41,526 nt of DNA from IMG/VR virus record IMGVR_UViG_3300045003_000061, positions 1 to 41,526 of that record. One strand, given 5' to 3'. A model generated the notes under the pieces. That model saw only the letters and a program-made list of their open reading frames with translations. It was not told where the DNA came from and did not search any database. This DNA is from a virus. The position numbers and the translations under genes were made by a program. Of this stretch, positions 1 through 41,526 are shown in pieces (the first letter of the stretch is position 1; the number at the start of each line of letters is the position of its first letter).

Positions 1-122
1 ACGCCTCCGGCTTTCTCGGCGTGTTCGCCGGCGCGATCGGGCCGCTCGGCGTCGTCGAAACCGCGACGTTCAGCGTCGGCGGATCGGGCTATTATACGTC
101 GCTCGTCGGCGTCAGGGGCTAG
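1..122 (+). CDS. 3' end of the tail-fibre-like gene (duplicate of 41400-41521)
   Basis: This fragment reads in the same frame as the C-terminus of the 412-residue protein encoded at 40283-41521 and ends with the same TAG at 120-122. It is the same gene seen a second time because the circular sequence was opened inside it. It should not be counted as a separate gene or as a pseudogene. Confidence 0.9.
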   Translation, partial: ASGFLGVFAGAIGPLGVVETATFSVGGSGYYTSLVGVRG

Positions 123-127
123 GCCCT
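1..127. repeat. Terminal direct repeat, left copy
   Basis: Identical base for base to 41400-41526. It contains the last 40 codons and the TAG stop of the tail protein gene that is complete at 40283-41521. An exact 127-base overlap is what assemblers with k=127 leave on a circular contig, so it most likely shows that the molecule is circular or circularly permuted and complete. It is probably not a true physical terminal repeat. Confidence 0.9.
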
Positions 128-2543: not shown

Positions 2544-2789
2544 GTGTTACACGGCCTCAAAGCGCGCCTCGGCCTCAAGCGGGGCGAGCGGCTCGAGCAA
2601 CCGCCGGGCACCGCGCCGAGCCTCATGCTGCAGCGCGACGGCGATCAATGGTTCGTCGTCATGTTACACGGCGGCCGACAGATCCACCGCTACACGCCGA
2701 AACAGGCGCGGCGCATGGCTAACCGCTTCATCGAAATGGCGTGGCTGGCGAGCAATCCCGGCTCCTGCCCGACGGGGACGCTCGAGTGA
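2544..2789 (+). CDS. Hypothetical protein, 81 aa, start codon inside a palindrome
   Basis: The best start is GTG at 2544, two bases after the previous stop, lying within a perfect GCCGTGTTACACGGC palindrome. A second palindrome (2661-2669) lies inside the gene in the same frame, so the protein carries LHG twice (residues 2-4, and in FVVMLHGGRQ). The middle (GDQWFVVMLHGGRQIHRYTP) looks like a short beta-rich fold. The Shine-Dalgarno is weak, so translation may be coupled to the upstream gene or start later, at 2626. Family not recognised. Confidence 0.5.
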   Translation: MLHGLKARLGLKRGERLEQPPGTAPSLMLQRDGDQWFVVMLHGGRQIHRYTPKQARRMANRFIEMAWLASNPGSCPTGTLE

Positions 2790-3883
2790 GCCGGTGCGGG
2801 ACACAATTCACGCGCCCGGCGATCGATATCGACGATCTGAAAGAGCTCGCCAACGGACAGGTGCGCTCGATCGTCGCGCATCTGCTGCCCAACGGCCGCG
2901 AGAACTGCGGCTATTGGGAAGTGGGATCGATCGAAGGCGAGAAAGGGCAGTCGCTCAAGATCAATTTGACCGGCGCGCTCAAGGGCATGTGGACCGATTT
3001 CTCCGCGCCCAGGGGCACGAAGGAACGCGCCGGCAATATCCTGCAACTGATCGCCGCGGTGCGGTTCGGCCATGATCTCGGCCAAGCGTGCGCCTGGGCG
3101 CGGTCGTGGCTCGGGCTCGACCATCTCGACCCGAACCGGCTCGCGACCGAGAAAGCCAAGGCGCGCCGCCAGGCCAAGCGCAACCTCGAGGAAGCGGCGG
3201 CCAAAGCCGAGAAGAACCGCCGGCGCGCGCTGCAGCTCTATCTGTCGGCCTCCCCGCTGCCCGGAACGCTCGCCGAAGATTATCTGTGCTCGAGGGGAAT
3301 CGACCTCCGCGCCGCCGGCCTGCGCGCGCCGGGATCCCTGAAATTCAAGGCCGACGTCTATTGCGCCGAGACGCAAGGGCATCTGCCGGCGATGGTCGCG
3401 GCCGTGGTCAACCTCGAGGGCCGGCACATCGCGACGCACCGGACCTATCTCGCGCCCGACGGCAAGGGCAAGGCGACCTTGCTCGAGGCGAAGAAGGCGC
3501 TCGGCAAGTTCCAGGGCGGGTTCATTCCCTTGTGGAAGGGCGATCATGATTGCCCGCTCGCCGAGCTCCCGCCGGGAACGCCGATCTATGTCAGCGAGGG
3601 GATCGAGGACGGGCTGAGCGTGGCGCTGGCCCGCCCTTCCCTGCGCGTGATCGCGGCGATCAGCCTGTCCAATCTCGGCTCGCTCGAGCTGCCGGCCAAC
3701 TGCCCGGTCCATATCCTCGGCCAGCGCGACGAAAAGATGCGCGCGATCGAGGCGTTCGCCGCGGCGGTGCAGAAGCTGCAGGAAAAAGGGCACGCGGTTT
3801 TCCTGATTTATCCGCCTCGAGGCGTGAAGGACTATAACGAATTGCTGCAGCGGGACGCCGCGCAGGGTGCGGGGGGAGAGTAA
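2786..3883 (+). CDS. TOPRIM-domain primase-like protein, 365 aa
   Basis: GTG at 2786 overlaps the previous TGA (GTGA) and is preferred to earlier in-frame codons inside the neighbour. The N-terminal ~110 residues resemble the DNA-binding part of phage primases (GYWEVGSIEGEKGQSLKINL, GMWTDFSAPRG) but lack an obvious zinc-finger cysteine set. A charged Ala/Lys helical linker follows. The C-terminal TOPRIM region carries IYVSEGIEDGLSVALA, with conserved Glu271; the usual DxD is replaced by GQRDEK. It should prime phage DNA synthesis with the adjacent ATPase. Related to phage Toprim_3/DUF7146-type proteins. Confidence 0.75.
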   Translation: MSRCGTQFTRPAIDIDDLKELANGQVRSIVAHLLPNGRENCGYWEVGSIEGEKGQSLKINLTGALKGMWTDFSAPRGTKERAGNILQLIAAVRFGHDLGQACAWARSWLGLDHLDPNRLATEKAKARRQAKRNLEEAAAKAEKNRRRALQLYLSASPLPGTLAEDYLCSRGIDLRAAGLRAPGSLKFKADVYCAETQGHLPAMVAAVVNLEGRHIATHRTYLAPDGKGKATLLEAKKALGKFQGGFIPLWKGDHDCPLAELPPGTPIYVSEGIEDGLSVALARPSLRVIAAISLSNLGSLELPANCPVHILGQRDEKMRAIEAFAAAVQKLQEKGHAVFLIYPPRGVKDYNELLQRDAAQGAGGE

Positions 3884-5674
3884 ATGGCAGACCGGAAGAA
3901 GCGGGGCGGCCTCGAGCTGATCTCCGGAGCGCTCGACGAAGCCACGCCGGCGCCGCGCATCGCGCGCCCCGTCGGCGGAACGATCGAGGAGCCCGAGCTC
4001 CCCGGCCTGCTGCCGCCCGGCTGTCCCGTGGTCCCCTTGGGCAAGCTCAATCAGGTCTGTTACTATCTCGACGAACAGCGCCAGCTCATTGGCCTCGATC
4101 CGCAAAAGCACGCCAAGCAGCACATTCGATCTTTGTTCGGCCGCAAGTCGCATTTGTGCGACGAATATTGGCCGCGCGTCGACAACCAGGGCAATCCGAA
4201 AGGGCACGGCCAATGGCACCCGGAGATCGCGGCCGACGTGCTGCAGCGGGCGTGCGCCTGGGCGGGGATCTTCGATCCGCAGGGCCGCGTGTTCGGCCGC
4301 GGCGCGCATCGCGGGACCGACGGCGAGCTGATCCTCCATTGCGGCGATGCGGTGTACGTCGCCGGCGAGCGCGGCGGCTATCGCGAGCCCGGCCTGATCG
4401 ACGGCAACGTGTACCCGACGGCCGCCGCGATCCCGCGCCCGCATGAGAACGGGCAATCGACGGCCGCCGGCGAGCAGCTCCTCGGGCTCTACAAGAGCTG
4501 GTATTGGGCGCGGCCGATCGTCGACCCGATGCTCCTTCTGGGATGGACCGGATGCGCGATGATCGCGGGCGCGCTGCAATGGCGGCCGCATGTGTGGGTC
4601 ACGGGATCCTCGGCAACCGGCAAGTCGACGCTGCAGAAGGCGCTCGAATATCTGTTCGACGGCGGCGCGCTGCACACGGCCGACGCAACGGAGGCGTCGC
4701 TTCGCCAGCTCCTCAAGCAGCAAACCCTGCCCGTGTTCTTCGACGAGCTCGAGGCGAGCGAGGACAACCGCAAGGGCAAGGGCGTGATCGCCCTCGCGCG
4801 CCTCGCCTCCTCGGGCGGCGAGATCTTCCGCGGCGGACAGGATCACGAAGGCCACGCCTTCAAGGCCAAGACGTGCTTCCTGTTTTCGTCGATCCTGATC
4901 CCGCCGGCGCTGCAGCAGGACCGCAACCGTCTCGCGATCCTCGAGCTCGAAAAGATCCCGAAGGGCGCGGATCCCGTCGAGCTCGATCCCGCCGAGCTGC
5001 GCGAGCTCGGCCGCCAGCTCCGGCGCCGGCTGATCGATCAATGGCCGCGCCTCGAGGGGATGCTCGCCGCCTATCGATCGGCGCTCGCCGACGTCGGACA
5101 CGGCGGCCGATCGCAGGATCAGTTCGGGGCGTTGCTCGCGGTCGCCGATCTCATGCTGTACGACACGGCCGACGACGAGCTGATCGAGGAAGCGGCGGGT
5201 TGGGTGGCGGCCGAGACGCTCGCGGAAAAGTCGATGGAGCTCGCCGACGAGGAGGAAGCGCTCGCCTATCTCTCGTCGACGACGCTCAAGGGGCGCGGCG
5301 GCGACGAGCTCGAGCCCGTCGCCCGGCATATCCGCGATGCGCTGGCCCCGGACGGCGACCGGGCGCGCGACCGGCTCGAGAATTTCGGGCTGAGGATCAT
5401 CGAGCTGACCGAAAGCGAGGACGGCAAGGCGAGCGTCGGCAAGCCGACGGGAACCAAGCCGGCGAAGGAGCTCTATCTCGCGATCGCCAACAGCCACACG
5501 CAGCTCGAGACGATTTTCGAGCGCACCCGTTGGGGCGAAGGCACATGGGCGCAGGCGTTCGGCCGAGTCGACGGCGCGAAGAAACGGGTCAAGGTCCGGT
5601 TCGCCGGCGACAAAGGCCGTTGGTCGACGCTGGTCCCGCTTTCGTCGATCGTCGAGCTGGAAGTTGGGGATTAA
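3884..5674 (+). CDS. Replication ATPase/helicase-like protein, 596 aa
   Basis: Follows the primase gene directly (stop at 3881-3883, ATG at 3884) with a GGGGGGAG Shine-Dalgarno. Walker A is GSSATGKST at residues 241-249 (Lys247) and Walker B is LPVFFDELE around 282-290, with Asp287 and Glu288. The arrangement fits the primase-associated helicases (DUF927/D5-like) of temperate phages. The N-terminal ~230 residues may be a DNA-binding or primase-associated module. With the TOPRIM protein it probably opens the origin and recruits host polymerase, since the phage encodes none. It is the last rightward early gene. Confidence 0.75.
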   Translation: MADRKKRGGLELISGALDEATPAPRIARPVGGTIEEPELPGLLPPGCPVVPLGKLNQVCYYLDEQRQLIGLDPQKHAKQHIRSLFGRKSHLCDEYWPRVDNQGNPKGHGQWHPEIAADVLQRACAWAGIFDPQGRVFGRGAHRGTDGELILHCGDAVYVAGERGGYREPGLIDGNVYPTAAAIPRPHENGQSTAAGEQLLGLYKSWYWARPIVDPMLLLGWTGCAMIAGALQWRPHVWVTGSSATGKSTLQKALEYLFDGGALHTADATEASLRQLLKQQTLPVFFDELEASEDNRKGKGVIALARLASSGGEIFRGGQDHEGHAFKAKTCFLFSSILIPPALQQDRNRLAILELEKIPKGADPVELDPAELRELGRQLRRRLIDQWPRLEGMLAAYRSALADVGHGGRSQDQFGALLAVADLMLYDTADDELIEEAAGWVAAETLAEKSMELADEEEALAYLSSTTLKGRGGDELEPVARHIRDALAPDGDRARDRLENFGLRIIELTESEDGKASVGKPTGTKPAKELYLAIANSHTQLETIFERTRWGEGTWAQAFGRVDGAKKRVKVRFAGDKGRWSTLVPLSSIVELEVGD

Positions 5675-5817: not shown

Positions 5818-5957
5818 CGCCGTAATGGCTCCCACCCCCCGAAACGATGCACCCTGGGGGGGGTGAAGAACATCGTTCCCAAGAAACGGGCGGGACTAGA
5901 TAGCGCCAAACTCGGTCGAATCCAAATCGTTCCGCTAGGGTATGCGCCGCGCCGCAC

Positions 5958-6540: not shown

Positions 6541-7116
6541 TTACACGCCCTCCCCTGCCCGTTCGGCGGCCGCGCGCTCGCCCATGATGCGGCCGACGCT
6601 CGCCTTGCTGCAGCCGAGCGCCCTGGCCGCCTTGCCGTAGCTGCCATGCTCGGCGACGGCCGCGGCGACGGCCGCCGGATCGAGGCGGGATTGCTTGCCG
6701 CGATACTTGCCCTCGCCTTTCGCCCGAGCGATCCCTTCGAGCTGGCGCTCGCGCCTCAGATCGTTCTCGAATTCGGCGACGAGCCCCAGGATCCCGAGCA
6801 ACAGCTTGCCCGTCGGCGTGTCGGTGTTCGCGCCCGGCTGCTGCAGGCAGAGGAAGGACGCTTGTGCGTCGCCGACGCGCTGCAGGATCGCGTAGAGATC
6901 GGGAACCGATCGGGCGAGCCGGTCGAGCCGGGTGACGATCAGCTCGTCCCCTGCCCTCAGATCGTCGAGCGCGCGATCGAGCTCGACGCGCTTGAACGTC
7001 GATCGCGCGCTCTCCTTCTCGCGATAGATCTTCTCGCAGCCGGCGGCCGAGAGCGCCTCAAGCTGCAGCTCAAGCGATTGCCCGCCCGAGCTGACGCGTG
7101 CGTAGCCGATCTTCAT
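6541..7116 (-). CDS. Small serine recombinase (resolvase/invertase), 191 aa
   Basis: The N-terminus has the resolvase signature IGYARVSSGGQSLELQ with nucleophile Ser9. LIVTRLDRLARS (about 61-71) supplies the conserved Asp/Arg residues, and the E-helix region GKLLLGILGLVAEFENDLRR leads to a C-terminal HTH (YGKAARALGCSKASVGRIMGE, about 158-179). Length is typical of Tn3-type resolvases and Hin-type invertases and far too short for a phage serine integrase. It could resolve genome multimers, invert a segment or regulate. No paired crossover sites were recognised. It overlaps the upstream gene (ATGA at 7113-7116). Confidence 0.9.
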   Translation of the reverse strand: MKIGYARVSSGGQSLELQLEALSAAGCEKIYREKESARSTFKRVELDRALDDLRAGDELIVTRLDRLARSVPDLYAILQRVGDAQASFLCLQQPGANTDTPTGKLLLGILGLVAEFENDLRRERQLEGIARAKGEGKYRGKQSRLDPAAVAAAVAEHGSYGKAARALGCSKASVGRIMGERAAAERAGEGV

Positions 7117-9350: not shown

Positions 9351-9926
9351 CTAGACGGCGGGGGAGGGGAGGGGATCGCCGCGCGTCTCGGTGAGCTGCA
9401 GATCGTCGCGTGCGAGCCAAGCCTCCAGCTCGTCCGCTTCGCGGCGCACGGCGTCGAAGTACGCGCCTTCGCCGCCTTCCTGATCGCGCCGAAGCATGGC
9501 AAGCCGCTCAACCGGAGCCGTCGGCCGCGCGTCGCGCGCTCCCTCCCAAAAGCCGCTCGTGTCGTGATCGCACTCGCCGACGTGGCGGAACGCCTCGACC
9601 GTGCCTTCGCCGTCTTGCGGAATGTCGAACAACTCGGCCTCGTCCGCGCCCTCGGTGTCATAGTCGATGGTAACGAGCTGCACGCCGGCAACACTGGCGG
9701 TTACGGCGGAAACGCAGCCGCCTTCCAGCGCGACTAGGACGCGGATCGGCGGCGACGTCTCGCCGGGAACAGCGGGCGGCAAGTACCCGCGCCCGGTCGC
9801 GGCCATTGAACGCGCCCAGGCTTCCAGCTCCTGCTTGCGGCGCGTGGCTTCGCTGCCGTCGGGGTCGAGTATGTCGAGCGCGTCGGCGATCAGCTCATAA
9901 TCAAAGCTCGATAGATATTCAGTCAT
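9351..9926 (-). CDS. Hypothetical protein, 191 aa
   Basis: Starts at 9926 behind AAAGGCACCGATC, a variant of the shared start-associated sequence. Acidic N-terminus (MTEYLSSFDYELIADALDIL), Pro-rich linker, a central beta-like segment (IRVLVALEGGCVSAVTASVA) and a charged helical C-terminus. The N-terminal phrase is typical of small phage/plasmid accessory proteins, but the family is not recognised. It ends exactly where the structured element 9291-9350 begins. Confidence 0.65.
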   Translation of the reverse strand: MTEYLSSFDYELIADALDILDPDGSEATRRKQELEAWARSMAATGRGYLPPAVPGETSPPIRVLVALEGGCVSAVTASVAGVQLVTIDYDTEGADEAELFDIPQDGEGTVEAFRHVGECDHDTSGFWEGARDARPTAPVERLAMLRRDQEGGEGAYFDAVRREADELEAWLARDDLQLTETRGDPLPSPAV

Positions 9927-11819: not shown

Positions 11820-12089
11820 GTTCCCATGTTCCCAGCCTTGTTCCCAGCCTTGGGAACAGGCTTTCCCTTCAAAATCAGGCGTTTAGGAGCGTGTTCCCAA
11901 CGTTCCCAAGATTTTGCCTCGCGCATGATGTGCGCGCGTGCGCGCGTAGGTTCGCGTGCGCGCGCGCGTATAGAGAGAGTGTATTTCCTTGGGAACATGG
12001 GAACAAGGTTCATAAGTATATGAAATGGCGCGGAAAGTGCGTTCCCAAAGGGCTGAAATCGTGGGTACAGAATTGGGAACGTTGGGAAC
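11820..12089. repeat. Array of eleven GTTCCCA/TGGGAAC heptamers
   Basis: GTTCCCA at 11820, 11828, 11840, 11893, 11902 and 12041; TGGGAAC at 11851, 11990, 11998, 12074 and 12083 (start positions). Several form pairs offset by 8 or 9 bp (11820/11828, 11893/11902, 11990/11998, 12074/12083), and 11840/11851 is an inverted pair. Pair spacing and the nearby AT-rich palindrome resemble iterons with an unwinding region; binding sites for a late-gene activator or the terminase are alternatives. Confidence 0.8.
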
Positions 12090-12176: not shown

Positions 12177-12755
12177 ATGGCCGATCATCCATCGCCGATC
12201 GCCGCCGATCTGTCGGAAGCGCGCGATCTGTGCGCGCTGCCCGATCCGGTGCAGCTCGATCTGATCCGCGATGAAGTGCCTGGGCGCGATCCGGGGACCG
12301 CGCGCGCCGTCGCCGAACGGCGCGGTCGTGGACGGCCGCCGGGATCGCTCAACAAGCGCAACGCCAAGTTCCGTGATCAGCTCCTCGCGATGTGCGGCGG
12401 CCAGCATCCGGCGCTCGTTCTGGCGCGCGCGACGGTGACGCCGGTCGAGCAGCTCGCGGCCGTGCTCGACTGTCCACGAAGCGAGGCGTTCGGCTTCCAG
12501 CTCCGCGCGGCGGCCGAGCTGATGCCGTACATGGAGGGCAAGCAGCCGACGCAAGTCGAGATCAGCCGCCGGAGCGACGTTGTGCTGATCATGCCCGCCG
12601 GAGCGATCGACGGCGATCAGCTCGACAGGATCGCGGCGGAAGCGGGCGAGGGCATGGCGGACGGGATCGACTGGCAAAGCGCCGAGATCATCGACGTGCT
12701 GCCGTCTCTTTCGGGTACACCCGAACAAGACGTCTCGCCAGCAGCCGACGCATAG
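12177..12755 (+). CDS. Probable terminase small subunit, 192 aa
   Basis: First late gene, preceded by AGTAGGGGGG. The segment RGRGRPPGSLNKRNAKFRDQ (about residues 49-68) is the basic opening seen in many phage small terminases and DUF5681-like proteins, followed by a helical region (HPALVLARATVTPVEQLAAV) and a segment ending in RRSDVVLIM. It should recognise phage DNA and load the large terminase encoded about 1.1 kb downstream. The small terminase is divergent in most phages, so the call rests on this motif and position. Confidence 0.6.
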   Translation: MADHPSPIAADLSEARDLCALPDPVQLDLIRDEVPGRDPGTARAVAERRGRGRPPGSLNKRNAKFRDQLLAMCGGQHPALVLARATVTPVEQLAAVLDCPRSEAFGFQLRAAAELMPYMEGKQPTQVEISRRSDVVLIMPAGAIDGDQLDRIAAEAGEGMADGIDWQSAEIIDVLPSLSGTPEQDVSPAADA

Positions 12756-13455: not shown

Positions 13456-13688
13456 GCGACGGAGCGGTCGCATTCGGCGAGAGGCGCCGTGTGCAGACGA
13501 AAGAGCAACGGCTCGGCCTCATGGCGGCGGTTCGGCGTTCGATGCGGCTCCGGCGCGCCGGCGAGCTCGACGAGCGCTTTGGCGAAAAACTCGTCGCGTC
13601 ACTCGGGCCAAACGAGGGTTTTCTCACCCCATCGTCGTCCCCGCACCTGTTCTTCCTCGCGGCGTGTCTCGAGGGGAAGATCCGGTGA
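13452..13688 (+). CDS. Hypothetical protein, 78 aa
   Basis: TTG at 13452 overlaps the previous TGA (TTGA). Basic N-terminal half (VQTKEQRLGLMAAVRRSMRL), Ser/Pro turn, hydrophobic end (HLFFLAACLEGKIR). The overlap with both neighbours supports it as part of the terminase operon. No family recognised. Confidence 0.5.
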   Translation: MSDGAVAFGERRRVQTKEQRLGLMAAVRRSMRLRRAGELDERFGEKLVASLGPNEGFLTPSSSPHLFFLAACLEGKIR

Positions 13689-13894
13689 TCGATATCGCGC
13701 TCGGCCGGCTTGCCGTCGATCTCCTGATCGGCCTCGCGATCGTCGCGGGTGCGAAGATTCTCGCCAACAGGATCGCGGCGGCGATCACGCGACGACGGTG
13801 GCGGCGGTCGACGGCGCGCGAGCTCGCGGAGATCCGGCGTCTCGAGCGCGAGATCCTCGAGCGCGAGACGGCGGCGGCGAGGCGCGTCGCATGA
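13685..13894 (+). CDS. Small membrane-anchored protein, 69 aa
   Basis: GTG at 13685 overlaps the previous TGA (GTGA), and the gene ends in ATGA with the large terminase. One N-terminal hydrophobic helix (VDLLIGLAIVAGAKILANRI) is followed by a highly charged coiled coil (ELAEIRRLEREILERETAAA). Topology resembles small spanin- or holin-like proteins, but its place beside the terminase is unusual for lysis genes. Function unknown. Confidence 0.55.
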   Translation: MIDIALGRLAVDLLIGLAIVAGAKILANRIAAAITRRRWRRSTARELAEIRRLEREILERETAAARRVA

Positions 13895-15486
13895 GCTCGA
13901 TCGCGCAGCTCATGAAGCCGACGGGGCCGGTCGGCGAGCGTTTCCTCAATGACAAGCGCCTGATCACCGGCATCATGGGGCCGGTCGGCTCGGCCAAGAC
14001 GACGAAATGCGTCGCGAAGATGGTCAAGTCGGCGCTGTGGCAGGAGCCCGGTCCCGACGGGATCTATCGCGCCAAGTGGGGCGTCGTCCGCGACACCTAT
14101 CCGCAGCTCAAAAAAACGGTGCTGGCGACGTGGCACCGCTGGTTCCCCAAGCAGCTCGGCGAATGGAACGGCGAAGCGCCTTACGAGCATACGCTCCGGT
14201 TCCTCGTCATTCAGGGGATCCAGAAATTCGAGGTCGAGCTCACCGTCATTTTCGCGGCGATCGGCGAGAACAAGGCCGAGGACGTCATGCGCGGGTGGGA
14301 AGTCACCGGCATCTGGCTGAATGAGGGCGATCTCGTCGCTTATGAAGTGTTCGCCTATGCCATGACCCGCATCGGCCGCTTTCCCGGCGCGTCGCAGGGC
14401 GGCTGCCAATGGCGCGGGCTCATTCTCGACATGAACGCGCCCGATATCGAGAATTGGACATACGGCGTGTTCGTCGAAAAGGATCTCGGGCTCGACAAGG
14501 AGCTCGAGCAGGAGCTCGCGCGCGAGCTCGGCGAGCTGTTCGGCGTCGGGTTCCACGTGCAGCCGGGCGGCCGGTCGAAGGATCCGCCGCCCGAGAACGT
14601 CGAAAATCTGCCCAAGGGCTATTACGCGCAGCAAGTTTTCGCGCTGTCCAAGCAGCCGTGGCTTGTCCGCCGGATGGTCGACAACGAATTCGGGCCGACG
14701 CGGCACGGGCAAGTCGTGTTCACCGAATATAACGACGAAGTTCATTGCGCGAAGGCGAAGCTCGAGGCGATCAGGGGCGTGCCGCTCAGGATCTCGGCCG
14801 ACGCCGGGCTGACGCCGGCGGCCGTGGTCCGCCAGCGCGATCACCGCGGGCAGATCCGGATCCTCGGCGAGATCGTCTATTTCGCCGAAACCGAGAATGA
14901 CGCGCTCGAGCAACTCGGCGCCTATGCGTTCGGCAAGCGCGTCGGCCGCTACGTGAAGGACGAATTCCCAAGCGTTCCGGTTTACCCGATCGTGCGCGTC
15001 GATCCGGCGTCGGCGGCGGGGGAGGGCGCCCAAAGCGCGGATCCGTCGTGGCGGCAGAATTTCCAGAAGGGGCTGCGCGAGGAGCTCGGCGAGGCGATCA
15101 GGGTCAAAAAGAGCCAGGTCCGCAACAATCATCTCGAAAAGCGGCTGCAGGCCGTGCGAACGCCGATGCTGACGATGGTCGAAGGCGGCGATCCCGGTTT
15201 CATCATCTGCCCGGAGCGCTGCAAGGTGCTCCGCAAAGGCTTCAAGGGCATGTACGTGATCCAGCGATCGAAGCTGGCGGGCGGCATGGAGCGCTTTTCC
15301 GATCAGCCGGCCAAAACCATGTGGTCGCACGTTCAGGACGCGCTCCAATACGGCTGCGTCGACGAACAGCACGCCGGGAACGACAATGATCTCGAGGGCG
15401 TCGCGCATCCGGGTTGGCGCGGCGATCGCCCGCGCCGGCGCGAGGTCAAGGTCGAGCGCGAATATAACGTGTTTAGCGGGAGGTAA
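13891..15486 (+). CDS. terL: Terminase large subunit, 531 aa
   Basis: Packaging motor and nuclease. Walker A is GPVGSAKTT (residues 30-38), Walker B region VTGIWLNEGD (138-147) with catalytic Glu145. The RNase H-like nuclease domain starts around residue 300 with RISADAGLTP (Asp304), the first metal ligand. Length is normal for a podovirus terminase. The ATG at 13891 overlaps the preceding TGA and is well supported; an in-frame extension upstream overlaps two genes and is rejected. Confidence 0.9.
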   Translation: MSSIAQLMKPTGPVGERFLNDKRLITGIMGPVGSAKTTKCVAKMVKSALWQEPGPDGIYRAKWGVVRDTYPQLKKTVLATWHRWFPKQLGEWNGEAPYEHTLRFLVIQGIQKFEVELTVIFAAIGENKAEDVMRGWEVTGIWLNEGDLVAYEVFAYAMTRIGRFPGASQGGCQWRGLILDMNAPDIENWTYGVFVEKDLGLDKELEQELARELGELFGVGFHVQPGGRSKDPPPENVENLPKGYYAQQVFALSKQPWLVRRMVDNEFGPTRHGQVVFTEYNDEVHCAKAKLEAIRGVPLRISADAGLTPAAVVRQRDHRGQIRILGEIVYFAETENDALEQLGAYAFGKRVGRYVKDEFPSVPVYPIVRVDPASAAGEGAQSADPSWRQNFQKGLREELGEAIRVKKSQVRNNHLEKRLQAVRTPMLTMVEGGDPGFIICPERCKVLRKGFKGMYVIQRSKLAGGMERFSDQPAKTMWSHVQDALQYGCVDEQHAGNDNDLEGVAHPGWRGDRPRRREVKVEREYNVFSGR

Positions 15487-20802: not shown

Positions 20803-21744
20803 ATGGGTGATGTGACTTTTACCGCGCAGACGCGGTTCGAATCCAACATGCGAATGGAGCTTCAGGAGCAGACCTCGAAGCTCGCTCCAACGGCGATCCA
20901 GCGCGACGTCGCCGGCGCCGAAAAGACCAAGCTCGACAACCTCATCTCCAACCACAAGATGCGGAAAAAGACCGAGCGCAACGGCCAGGTCGAGCACGAT
21001 TCGACGGGTTGGGACGGCATCTGGGTCGCCAAGCCCGATCCCGACTATCTCGCGACGCTGGTCGATCAGGAGGACAAGCTCCTGACCGCCGTCGATCTGC
21101 AGGGCGGCGAGACGCTGGCGCACGCCGGCGCGGTTCGCCGCGCGAAGGACGATGCGTTCATCGGCGGCTTCTTCGGCGACATGATCACCGGCAAGCAGGG
21201 AACGGTGCTGAACGCCTTCCCGGCGGGCAATGTGGTCGACGTCGGGTTGCAGCCTGACGGCACGATCGGCGCGGCAACCGGCATGAACGTCGCCAAGGTG
21301 CGGCGCGCCCGCCGGATCCTCGCGCGCAATTTCGTGAACCTCGATCAGACGCTCAACCTCGCGCTGACGTCGGAACAGATCGAGGAGCTCTCGCTCGACG
21401 CGAAGGCTTCGAACCGCGATTTTGCCGATGCGATCAAGATGCGGTGGAGCGCCGACGGCAAGTATATCGTCGCGATCGCCGGCTTCGAGATCATCGAGAT
21501 CGAGCTCGGCAATCCGATGTACGACAATGCCGCTCTCACGGTCACGCAGGACGGCAACAGCTACCGCAAGCTGCCGTTCTACACGGCCGATGGAATGGTC
21601 ATGGCGACCTGGGAGGAGCTGTTTACCTCCGTCGACAAGCTGCCGACGCAGCATTTCAGCGCGCAGGTCTATTCGCGCTGTCAGCAGGTCGCCTCGCGCA
21701 CCGACAACAATCGGTGCGGCTACATTCTCTGCAAGGAGAGCTGA
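20803..21744 (+). CDS. Major capsid protein, 313 aa
   Basis: Starts MGDVTFTAQTRFESNMRMEL at the ATG at 20803. The sequence fits the podovirus capsid family: an N-terminal arm, DSTGWDGIWVAKPDPDYLAT, the helix VAKVRRARRILARNFVNLDQ in the middle and SRCQQVASRTDNNRCGYILC at the end, with no delta-domain or protease signs. It is flanked by strong hairpins on both sides, in keeping with high, independent expression. Its position after the scaffold supports the call. Confidence 0.85.
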   Translation: MGDVTFTAQTRFESNMRMELQEQTSKLAPTAIQRDVAGAEKTKLDNLISNHKMRKKTERNGQVEHDSTGWDGIWVAKPDPDYLATLVDQEDKLLTAVDLQGGETLAHAGAVRRAKDDAFIGGFFGDMITGKQGTVLNAFPAGNVVDVGLQPDGTIGAATGMNVAKVRRARRILARNFVNLDQTLNLALTSEQIEELSLDAKASNRDFADAIKMRWSADGKYIVAIAGFEIIEIELGNPMYDNAALTVTQDGNSYRKLPFYTADGMVMATWEELFTSVDKLPTQHFSAQVYSRCQQVASRTDNNRCGYILCKES

Positions 21745-21755
21745 GCCTGGGGGCG

Positions 21756-21790
21756 GTGAGCCGCCGGCGCTCGACCCGCCGGCGGCTCAC
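21756..21790 (+). terminator. Hairpin after the capsid gene
   Basis: Perfect 13-bp stem GTGAGCCGCCGGC (21756-21768) with GCCGGCGGCTCAC (21778-21790), loop of nine bases. No T-run follows. An isolated TGGGAAC heptamer (21792-21798) lies directly downstream. Probably stabilises the 3' end of the capsid mRNA and reduces read-through. Confidence 0.6.
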
Positions 21791-21866
21791 TTGGGAACAA
21801 CGGGGATCCCGCTCCGGCAACGCGGGACGATCCGAACGATCTCGGGTTTGAGATTTGGGGGGTTCA

Positions 21867-22307
21867 ATGGATTACAATTCTCAAGAAGCGCCGGCCAATA
21901 CTGCCGGTATGCCGACGGTGAAGGGGCCGGGCAATTCGGCCAATTCGCCTGTCCGCCGCACGATCGCGACGTTCAAGTGCGACGCCACGGGTTGCGGCGG
22001 AGCGGCGATCGGCGACAAGCTGCATCTGCGGCGGATCCCGGCGGGCGCACGCGGGATCAAGCACCGGATCACCGTCAGCGCCACGCTCGGAACGTCGACG
22101 CTCAAGCTCGGCATTGCCGGCAATGACGCCAAATATGCGGCCGCGGCGACGTACACCACGGCGAACGCTCCGGTTTCGATCGCCAAGGCGGCCAATCTCG
22201 CCGCCGAGCTGGCGGCCGACGAAGATCAGTTCCTCACTGTCGGCGCCGCGGCGCTCCCGAACGACGGGACGCTGATCGTCGTCGAGACGGAGTTCACGCT
22301 CAACTAA
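21867..22307 (+). CDS. Probable decoration or minor capsid protein, 146 aa
   Basis: ATG at 21867 follows GGGGGGTTC. The N-terminus is Pro/Gly/Ser-rich (MDYNSQEAPANTAGMPTVKG); the rest alternates beta-type segments (KHRITVSATLGTSTLKLGIA, DGTLIVVETEFTLN) with Ala-rich stretches. A compact beta-sandwich downstream of the capsid gene and bracketed by hairpins fits a capsid decoration or stabilisation protein, by position and composition only. Confidence 0.5.
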   Translation: MDYNSQEAPANTAGMPTVKGPGNSANSPVRRTIATFKCDATGCGGAAIGDKLHLRRIPAGARGIKHRITVSATLGTSTLKLGIAGNDAKYAAAATYTTANAPVSIAKAANLAAELAADEDQFLTVGAAALPNDGTLIVVETEFTLN

Positions 22308-38625: not shown

Positions 38626-39074
38626 TGTCGAGCAAACCAGTCACGGATCTGCCGGCGGCGGATCCGCTCTCCGGCGACGAACTGATCCACGTCGTTCAGC
38701 ACGGCAGCAGCCGCAAGACCACCGCCGCGTCGATCGGCGGCGGCGCCTATCATTACGGATCCTTCGCCGTCGCCGCGATCGGCGCGGGCGAGATCCTGAT
38801 GGATCATGTCGTCGCGACTCCGCACGTGCTCGCCGCGAATTTCGCCGGCTGCGTCGCCAGCGTCGGGACGCCGCCCGACGGAAACTGGATCGCCGACATT
38901 CAGAAGAACGGCGTTTCGATCGGGTCGCTCACAATCCATCCCGACGGCACCGTGACATGGCCGGCGGTCGCGGCCGTCGCCGTCGCCGCCGGCGACGTGA
39001 TCGCGCTGATCGCACCGGCGATCGCCGACGGCTCGATCGCCCGCCTCCGCTTCACTTTCAAGGGATCGCTCTAA
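38625..39074 (+). CDS. Fibre-associated or tail protein, 149 aa
   Basis: ATG overlaps the spanin TAA (TAATG). N-terminus MSSKPVTDLPAADPLSGDEL, IHVVQHGSSRKTTAAS is a pattern widespread at the start of phage tail-fibre or receptor-binding proteins. The C-terminal part is beta-rich (GNWIADIQKNGVSIGSLTIH, ARLRFTFKGSL). It is short for a full fibre and may attach to another tail protein. All tail genes 38625-40278 are linked by TAATG overlaps. Confidence 0.65.
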   Translation: MSSKPVTDLPAADPLSGDELIHVVQHGSSRKTTAASIGGGAYHYGSFAVAAIGAGEILMDHVVATPHVLAANFAGCVASVGTPPDGNWIADIQKNGVSIGSLTIHPDGTVTWPAVAAVAVAAGDVIALIAPAIADGSIARLRFTFKGSL

Positions 39075-40060
39075 TGCCGACAAATGTTCTCTGGCAGGGC
39101 CATGAAGTCGACGCGTACCGGATCAGCAATACGTCGAACGTCGAGAACCACGGCGCGATCGATGCGGCTTACGAACGCGCGGGAATGAGGGTCGGCCGAT
39201 GGGGTGCCGGCGATCTCTATTCGCGTCCCGACTGGCCTGCGACAAGCGAGATCTGGCACCACTTCAATCATGTGAGCGGCGCCTATAACGCCGGGTTGGT
39301 ATTCTGGGCGGCGTGCCAGGCCGACGGGACGAAGGTCGCGCAGATCGTTGCCGTCAACACGACGACGGCCAAGTATCAGCGCCTCGCCGGCGGCGTCATG
39401 GTCGACGTCGGCGCGCCCTTCGCCATTCAGGATCCGAACACGGTCGTTCGTTTCGACGTCCATCACAAGGGAACCGTCGACGGCAAGATCGAGGTTTGGT
39501 ACGGGACCGTCGGCGCACAGAACAAGGTGGTCGATGCCGCCGGCGATTTCTCCGGCGCCGCCGCAATCGTGCGGATCTACCACGGAACCAACAATGTCGG
39601 CGGCGGCTACGATACCAGCGTCGCGCACGAGATCGTGCAAACCACGTCGACGCTTTCCTCAACGAGCGAGATCAAGCCGCCGACGTCGCAGGGCGCCGAC
39701 GCCGACGGGACGGGAAGCTATCTCGACGTCGACGAGGAGGTTTTCAGCGACGTCGATATCATCACTTTGTCCGCCTCCGGGCACCGGCAGAGCTTCAAGT
39801 CGCCGGCGCGCCTTCACACGCAAAGCGTCGTGACCGGCGTCACGATCTCATGCCGCGCATGGTTCGAGGCCGGCGGCCCGTCGCAGATCAAGCCCTATCT
39901 GACGATCGGCGGCGTGCGCTATTACGGGCCAGCCTTCGATCTCGATCTCGTCGCCGGCGCCTATCAATACACCTGGGCGGCCAATCCGGCGACGGCGGCG
40001 GCGTTCACGCCGGCAGAGGCGAGCGACGCCAATCTCGAATGGGGATGGGAAGCAGTCTAA
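39074..40060 (+). CDS. Tail-associated beta-rich protein, 328 aa
   Basis: ATG overlaps the previous TAA (TAATG). Begins MPTNVLWQGHEVDAYRISNT; strongly beta-rich with a lectin-like feel (LVFWAACQADGTKVAQIVAV, VVRFDVHHKGTVDGKIEVWY, VRIYHGTNNVGGGYDTSVAH). Likely a receptor-binding or spike component; the enzymatic type, if any, is not recognised. Confidence 0.55.
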   Translation: MPTNVLWQGHEVDAYRISNTSNVENHGAIDAAYERAGMRVGRWGAGDLYSRPDWPATSEIWHHFNHVSGAYNAGLVFWAACQADGTKVAQIVAVNTTTAKYQRLAGGVMVDVGAPFAIQDPNTVVRFDVHHKGTVDGKIEVWYGTVGAQNKVVDAAGDFSGAAAIVRIYHGTNNVGGGYDTSVAHEIVQTTSTLSSTSEIKPPTSQGADADGTGSYLDVDEEVFSDVDIITLSASGHRQSFKSPARLHTQSVVTGVTISCRAWFEAGGPSQIKPYLTIGGVRYYGPAFDLDLVAGAYQYTWAANPATAAAFTPAEASDANLEWGWEAV

Positions 40061-40282: not shown

Positions 40283-41521
40283 ATGGGCAGGCCAGGCGAT
40301 ATCAACGTGCGCGTCATGGCGGCGGCCGCGCAGTCGGCCGCCGAGGACGGCGCGCAAGCCTATGCGGACGCGCAGCTCGCGACGAAGATCGGCTACATTC
40401 GGGATCCGGTCTGGATCGCGACGGCTCCGGACGTGTTCGCGATCGTCCCGGTTCAGGCCGACGGCGAGACGTCGGTCGACGTGATCACGATCGGCAATGC
40501 CGCCCTCGAGGGGACGGTCTATTTCCAGAAGGGGACCGCCGCGGATCCCGGCGGCTTCGAGTTCGACTTGCTCGGCGGCAATACGGGATGGTTCATCGGA
40601 TTTTCCGCCGACGCCGGCGGAACCCGCCTCATGGTCGACCAATATGGGACGGCGACGGGGTGGCAGTTCGCCGAGACGCCCTATGTCGGGCCGGCGGCGG
40701 GACCGGCGCACGCGATCTTTCACGGCGGCAACCTCAGTTTCGGCGCCGGGCTCGACTACGATCCCGTCACCGGCGAGCTCACCGCCACCGGCGGCGCCGC
40801 CGGCGCGACCAAGCTCGACGATCTGACCGACGTCGACACGTCGACGACGGCGCCAACCGACGGGCAAGTGCTCAAATATGATGCGGCCGCCGGGCTGTGG
40901 AAGCCAGGCGCGGCCGCGGCGGCAAGCGCCAAGCCGGTCCTGCGCGGCGCGTCGATCGCCTATTTCAACGCGGGATCGGCAACGATCGCCTTCCCCGCCG
41001 GAACCGTCGCCGGCGACCTTGCGATCCTGTGGGCGGCGCAAGCGTGGGACGTCAACAATCCGGCGAATTGGGTCGTGCTCGACAATCAATCGGGCAGTCA
41101 GACGATGGGCGCGACCTTCGCCAAGGTGCTGACCGCCGGCGACATTGCGACCGGAACCGTGACCGTCAACTTCAACGGCGGGTTCGACGGGACGATCGCG
41201 ATCGCCACGATCCAGGGCAGCACCGCAAAAGGGATCCGCGACTGGCGGTGCATCCGCAGCAGCAACGGCGCGGCGTCGGTTCCGATCGCCGGGCCGCGGC
41301 TCGACGGCAACGATCTGATCCTGGGCTATATCCACAACCGCGCCAATTCGGTCGACGCGATCAGCAACTTCACCGCGAAGGGCGCGCCGCAAGGCGCGAA
41401 CGCCTCCGGCTTTCTCGGCGTGTTCGCCGGCGCGATCGGGCCGCTCGGCGTCGTCGAAACCGCGACGTTCAGCGTCGGCGGATCGGGCTATTATACGTCG
41501 CTCGTCGGCGTCAGGGGCTAG
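40283..41521 (+). CDS. Tail-fibre-like protein, 412 aa
   Basis: ATG at 40283, with a weak leader four bases after the previous stop. Ala-rich helical start (VMAAAAQSAAEDGAQAYADA), beta domain (DVFAIVPVQADGETSVDVIT), the linker TKLDDLTDVDTSTTAPTDGQ followed by VLKYDAAAGLWKPG, a widespread phage fibre linker, and a C-terminal beta domain (IAYFNAGSATIAFPAGTVAG to the end). It is the last late gene; the contig was opened inside its 3' end. Confidence 0.75.
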   Translation: MGRPGDINVRVMAAAAQSAAEDGAQAYADAQLATKIGYIRDPVWIATAPDVFAIVPVQADGETSVDVITIGNAALEGTVYFQKGTAADPGGFEFDLLGGNTGWFIGFSADAGGTRLMVDQYGTATGWQFAETPYVGPAAGPAHAIFHGGNLSFGAGLDYDPVTGELTATGGAAGATKLDDLTDVDTSTTAPTDGQVLKYDAAAGLWKPGAAAAASAKPVLRGASIAYFNAGSATIAFPAGTVAGDLAILWAAQAWDVNNPANWVVLDNQSGSQTMGATFAKVLTAGDIATGTVTVNFNGGFDGTIAIATIQGSTAKGIRDWRCIRSSNGAASVPIAGPRLDGNDLILGYIHNRANSVDAISNFTAKGAPQGANASGFLGVFAGAIGPLGVVETATFSVGGSGYYTSLVGVRG

Positions 41522-41526
41522 GCCCT
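41400..41526. repeat. Terminal direct repeat, right copy
   Basis: Exact duplicate of 1-127; see the left copy. Contains the end of the last late gene. Confidence 0.9.

Follow-up and report, generated by a model that had tools for sequence, protein, structure and literature searches.

Genome context of the heptamer array

The question raised by this locus is what a dense cluster of GTTCCCA heptamers, situated immediately ahead of the late genes of a tailed phage, does for the virus that carries it. A preliminary description made from the sequence had offered three readings: a replication origin with iterons, a late-gene activator array, or a packaging (pac) region beside the small terminase gene. 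The window examined here is the whole of positions 1-41,526 (41,526 nucleotides, one strand) of the IMG/VR virus record IMGVR_UViG_3300045003_000061. Its identical ends give a circular map of 41,399 bp, as is typical of circular assemblies, and the window thus holds the complete genome of a tailed phage (Table 1). The idea that it represents a PICI satellite needing a helper phage was rejected, as it encodes its own terminase, portal, major head, tail, and endolysin proteins. The helicase gene, which adjoins the primase gene, gave a weak match to DUF5906 and a strong match to a phage 'DNA primase' profile; the DUF5906 profile, which is too narrow, matched nothing in 45 records. A tRNA-Gly (gcc) is predicted at 38950-39029 (+), just where the 38957-40060 reading frame begins, and is either a phage tRNA or a false positive. 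Cumulative GC skew, named in the preliminary description as a check for an origin, reached its minimum at 9653, loosely near the array, but is confounded by gene direction and was not usable.

Table 1. Positions of the array, its parts, and associated genes in the window
Feature	Position	Strand	Remarks
Direct terminal repeat, 127 bp	1-127	+	Identical to 41400-41526
DNA primase	2741-3883	+	Toprim_3 with DUF7146 domain
D5/SF3-like AAA+ helicase	3884-5674	+	Walker A ATGKS, Walker B FFDE; proposed initiator
Isolated GTTCCCA	5875-5881	+	201 bp 3' of helicase gene
Iteron array, proposed replication origin	11820-12089		11 exact GTTCCCA heptamers and one degenerate
Left half-array, six iterons	11820-11908	+	Orientation +++-++; start-to-start spacings 8, 12, 11, 42, 9
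Core between half-arrays, 81 bp	11909-11989		GCGC/alternating purine-pyrimidine tract
Right half-array, five exact iterons and the degenerate one	11990-12089	-	Inward spacings 9, 12, 21, 43, 8
Most AT-rich 25-mer, candidate melting element	12002-12026		Inverted repeat TTCATAAGTATATGAA
Degenerate twelfth iteron	12062-12069	-	TGTACCCA, one mismatch; slot partly conserved in relatives
Putative terS	12177-12755	+	By position and conservation with large terminase; no named family
Terminase large subunit	13489-15486	+	phrog_979

Structure of the array

The eleven exact GTTCCCA/TGGGAAC heptamers originally reported for this stretch were all recovered, with plus-strand starts at 11820, 11828, 11840, 11893, 11902, and 12041 and minus-strand starts at 11851, 11990, 11998, 12074, and 12083. 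Over the whole window the count is 13; 100 dinucleotide-shuffled versions had 2.3 copies on average and never more than 7. These sites form two inverted half-arrays and not a loose scatter: a perfect 18-bp inverted repeat (11817-11834/11990-12007) joins the halves, and a further inverted repeat of 21 bp (11889-11909/12073-12093) is 95% matched. The preliminary description had picked out the offset and inverted heptamer pairs but missed, in part, the near-mirror structure of the whole. The AT-rich inverted repeat that it placed at 12009-12024 is real, and no other 25-mer of the neighborhood is as rich in AT as 12002-12026; this patch lies inside the right half-array, while the core between the halves is 60% GC. 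Its statement that no gene explains the array was likewise borne out, in that no gene, Rfam family, or consensus sigma-70 promoter accounts for the stretch. No DnaA box was apparent by eye in the core, a point against an origin. In seven close relatives, 67.5% of iteron columns are invariant versus 8% of the columns in between, and the GCGC-rich core recurs among close relatives.

The single heptamers reported outside the array, at 5875 and 21792, are also present. The first occupies the array position of most relatives and is possibly a relic of an ancestral origin position, or a chance occurrence; a lone high-scoring iteron (TTGTTCCCAAG, 21790-21800) lies in the intergenic stretch that separates 21855-22307 from the major head gene (20803-21744). 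Two other interpretations were considered and set aside. The LexA box pattern is GTTC-N7-GTTC, and LexA boxes were rejected because the spacings in the array vary (8, 9, 11, and 12) rather than holding to a fixed 11. A Z-DNA role was considered for the alternating purine-pyrimidine tract, and nothing links the tract to function.

Arrays in other viral records

A scan of IMG/VR for TGTTCCCATGTTCCCA returned 44 stretches, about half of which were genuine arrays with recurring spacings, the rest being chance-like single doublets or compact inverted doublets. All records with a Toprim_3 primase or a window-type helicase carried a GTTCCCA array or an array of a related word (GTTTCCA in G037, GTTCCC(A/G) in G040), and in several (G003, G043, G040) the array stood directly 3' of the helicase gene. 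Where a window-type helicase went undetected, other initiators were found beside the array, namely VapE (L023, L039), DUF927 with the Cch HTH (L077), and Prim-Pol with DUF927 and the Cch HTH (L073), and in L079 the array was beside a Toprim_3 protein with DUF927. This recurrence beside different initiator types in unrelated contigs speaks for an origin. Records in which GTTCCCATGTTCCCA occurred once, without an array, were taken as chance hits, and most lacked a replicase of these types; the exception seen was G013/L018, in which a DUF927 gene lies 30 kb off. The array region gave no blastn match among annotated phages, and a literature search of partial coverage returned nothing relevant on TGTTCCC-type iterons or the P4 repeat.

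A compact variant was observed in L015, L016, L020, L031, L035, L038, L041, and L045, mostly as a pair of inverted GTTCCCATGTTCCCA doublets separated by about 150-165 bp, the stretch between them being AT-rich. The L016 copy is next to a terminase-like gene, and a Prim-Pol/DUF3987 gene is 3 kb away from it. Perfect DnaA-box sequences (TTATCCACA/TGTGGATAA) occur between iteron groups in L034 (2750-2960) and L047 (760-920), which suggests that host DnaA may take part at some such origins.

Because all of these records had been selected by the motif, 80 further viral loci (including near-duplicates and a few from the first set) were fetched with the helicase alignment alone, no motif being specified, and for each we asked where the strongest short-repeat cluster lies, with a two-strand heptamer cluster score of at least 8 as the cut-off. 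Such a cluster was present in 67 of the 80 loci and was 3' of the helicase in 65 of these; 47 of the 67 clusters lay within 1 kb of the helicase, versus 4.4 expected. Even a score of 6 was reached in none of 80 dinucleotide-matched random sequences, and in P4, used as a positive control, the two top clusters returned by the finder were the annotated crr and ori. Farther helicase relatives (L082, L083, and L084) had no such array, which counts against an origin. The usual position of the array in relatives, directly 3' of the helicase gene, had been missed by the preliminary description, as had the cognate helicase and primase genes (2741-5674). The window's own array is 3' of the helicase but 6.1 kb off, and its close relatives are equally displaced.

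With identical arrays removed, 61 distinct arrays remained, and these used 41 heptamer words (CGTTACC in L095, for example), some differing from others only in register. The word differs by lineage while the layout stays conserved. In a pair-distance analysis with one array per word, distances between sites clustered at 8-9, 11-12, 20-23, 30-33, 41-44, 51-55, and 62-65 bp, with a best period of 10.9 bp (resultant 0.38 versus a maximum of 0.17 in 500 random placements); the sites therefore share one helical face. In 51 of 60 arrays the innermost pair was inverted. Nearly all arrays (59 of 61) were richer in AT than their flanks, and in 38 of the 61, against 6.8 expected, the 25-mer with the highest AT content in the surrounding 2 kb (up to 1 kb away) fell inside the array. 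The GC-rich central spacer of the window, which is not AT-rich, runs counter to an origin.

A serine resolvase gene (6544-7116, -) is located in the block that separates the window's helicase from its array; homologues turned up in no lineage but the window's own (L085-L089), the one whose origin lies away from the helicase.

Predicted fold of the helicase

An AlphaFold model of the helicase (pLDDT 89.5) matched 5dgk (Cch) and 7ola (SaPI5) in Foldseek at E values of about 5e-7 to 3e-6, and the fold matches of this predicted model comprised ASFV PrimPol, SCCmec Cch (TM 0.45-0.50), NrS-1, the SaPI5 primase-helicase, and a poxvirus D5 orthologue. The protein is thus predicted to be an initiator helicase of the Rep/Cch/D5 fold. 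Its C-terminal domain was modeled as two helix-helix-beta-hairpin units. Because this domain alone gave no significant Foldseek match in the PDB, we do not claim a winged helix.

Covariation of the iteron word with helicase and TerS

The gene order in the helicase family, within full tailed phages, is primase-helicase-origin-terS-terL, and terS or terL follows the array in 58 of 65 array loci. In the window, 87 bp separate the array from the putative terS gene downstream, and throughout the window's lineage the array stays beside terS (84-105 bp) though it is 5.5-7.4 kb from the helicase, a placement that, taken alone, favors TerS and counts against an origin. Given this position, the serious rival was a packaging (pac/cos) site recognized by the small terminase, the product of the adjacent downstream gene, and we therefore asked with which protein the iteron word covaries, using 39 non-redundant loci that have both helicase and TerS. 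Helicase residues 530-594 followed the iteron word, with a partial rank correlation of -0.30 given the rest of the helicase (shuffle minimum -0.155), whereas the partial correlation for TerS was -0.02. In a larger set, the best helicase windows were residues 505-529 (-0.31) and 560-584 (-0.27), compared with a shuffle minimum over all windows of -0.279, and both coincide with the beta-hairpins of the two predicted helix-helix-hairpin units. Since these are Mantel-type tests on related sequences, the effect size counts for more than any probability attached to it.

The iteron sequence, then, follows the C-terminal domain of the helicase and not TerS. GTTCCCA is kept where TerS is only about 27% identical to that of the window (L112, L134) and in L091/L136, where no TerS homologue was detectable; the DUF927-type initiator locus L079 has an array of the same heptamer with no terminase recognized nearby, and the GTTCACC iterons of P4 are annotated as replication elements. 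The pac reading of the preliminary description thus fits the position beside terS but not the behavior of the heptamer, and we consider a packaging site improbable. A further alternative is a regulatory array, to which a phage transcription factor would bind to control the late operon (12177 onward) or the divergent early genes. Its location in a divergent intergenic region upstream of the structural genes would suit such a role, but the array is linked to the end of the helicase gene in most relatives, the heptamer words change with the C-terminal domain of the helicase, origins typically have arrays of 8-12 inverted sites in helical phase, and no consensus promoter was found, although the promoter scan is a weak one. 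A regulatory array is in our view very unlikely, and nothing specific speaks for the late-gene activator first put forward. The iteron-origin reading, by comparison, is strongly supported by the motif-independent comparative evidence.

Relationship to known origins

The C-terminal domains of SaPI Rep and SCCmec Cch2 are reported to bind iterons directly 3' of their own genes (PMC7581432), and P4 alpha binds repeats at the P4 origin (PMC4234260). In PICIs and SaPIs the origin has a pri-rep-ori layout, with two iteron sets around an AT-rich region 3' of rep; function of this arrangement was tested for an E. coli PICI, in which the origin is immediately 3' of rep, and the 2018 study described the layout as shared with 'no other known bacterial replicon' (PMC6092414). 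The window has the same succession of a primase gene, an initiator helicase gene, and an array of two inverted iteron sets; the iterons are lineage specific, terS comes next, as in SaPIs (PMC6092414), and the predicted helicase fold matches the SaPI5 primase-helicase and SCCmec Cch. Unlike PICIs and SaPIs, these are complete tailed phages that encode terminase, capsid, and tail proteins of their own; in addition, the AT-rich patch of the window is within a half-array and not strictly between the sets, and the origin in the window's lineage is displaced 6 kb from the helicase. The putative origin of SCCmec offers a similar parallel, with a D5/MCM-like helicase (Cch/Cch2) and, in Cch2, a C-terminal DNA-binding domain that reads repeats just downstream of the gene (PMC7581432), but the Cch2 site has only three iterons and SCCmec is an integrated cassette, not a phage. 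The crenarchaeal plasmid pRN1 likewise has an essential origin downstream of its primase-helicase gene (PMC4234260), although with a stem-loop in place of iterons and an AEP primase fused to the helicase.

The resemblance to P4 was examined at several levels. As in P4 ori and crr, short repeats occur in both orientations, and the P4 repeat TGTTCACC shares its form with TGTTCCCA of the window. Spacings in the right half-array (9, 12, 21, 43, 8) agree with those of P4 ori (10, 11, 22, 43, 10) to within 0-2 bp in all six slots, with a chance of about 1.5% in random 12-site arrays. Because the P4-ori slot pattern over all arrays was barely above chance (3.80 versus 3.51 for random, of 6 slots), this match is only suggestive and belongs to the window rather than constituting a general family rule. 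In other respects the systems differ: primase and helicase are separate genes in the window, the iterons point the opposite way relative to the triplet/doublet order, and the word is TGTTCCCA and not TGTTCACC. GTTCACC, the core of the P4 type 1 repeat, occurs only in relatives (L142, and more weakly L148 and L160). P4 alpha is marked by a C-terminal winged-helix origin-binding domain; the C-terminal domain of the window helicase is predicted to have two helix-helix-beta-hairpin units and has no significant PDB match. Homology to P4 alpha was absent beyond Walker A (blastp E 0.84; the profile aligned Walker A only). We rejected the label of P4-alpha replicon on account of the different word and this lack of sequence homology beyond Walker A.

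P4 also provides the basis for another alternative, in which the array would be an auxiliary or copy-control element like crr and replication would start elsewhere. The P4 array directly 3' of alpha is crr and not ori, the latter being a second array, which counts against an origin here. The window, however, has one array and no second, both half-arrays and the AT-rich patch are contained in it, and the origins of SaPIs and E. coli PICIs lie immediately 3' of rep (PMC6092414). We regard a crr-like role as quite unlikely.

Proposed function and implications

Taken together, it is very likely that the array is an initiator-helicase-type replication origin whose iterons are bound by a D5/SF3-type helicase via its C-terminal domain. 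By analogy with the systems described above, the helicase (3884-5674) would bind the GTTCCCA iterons through that domain, and the Toprim primase (2741-3883) would be its partner and do the priming. Two helicase rings may assemble over the inverted half-arrays, whose sites share one face of the helix; strands would open at the AT-rich patch within the array, and the rings would be loaded there for replication.

An origin design of the PICI/SaPI and P4 kind, previously described in viral parasites, thus appears from sequence comparison to be present in full-size tailed phages. A broader and more tentative proposal, which we hold to be possible but not probable, is that a single replicon module (primase - initiator helicase - iteron origin - terS) is common to PICIs, SaPIs, and a large group of complete tailed phages, that the origin of the satellites is an inherited or borrowed phage module, that iteron words diversify to avoid cross-firing between phage and satellite, and that the helicase C-terminal domain (residues ~505-590) constitutes a readable recognition code. 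The analysis names a likely origin and initiator for a large, mostly uncultured group of tailed phages and would extend the PICI-type origin layout to autonomous phages. The matched helicase C termini and iteron words, set on one geometric scaffold, provide data on how initiator helicases read DNA, and the same set would be useful for testing the source of satellite replicons. In practical terms, the origins of such phages may be located by sequence alone.
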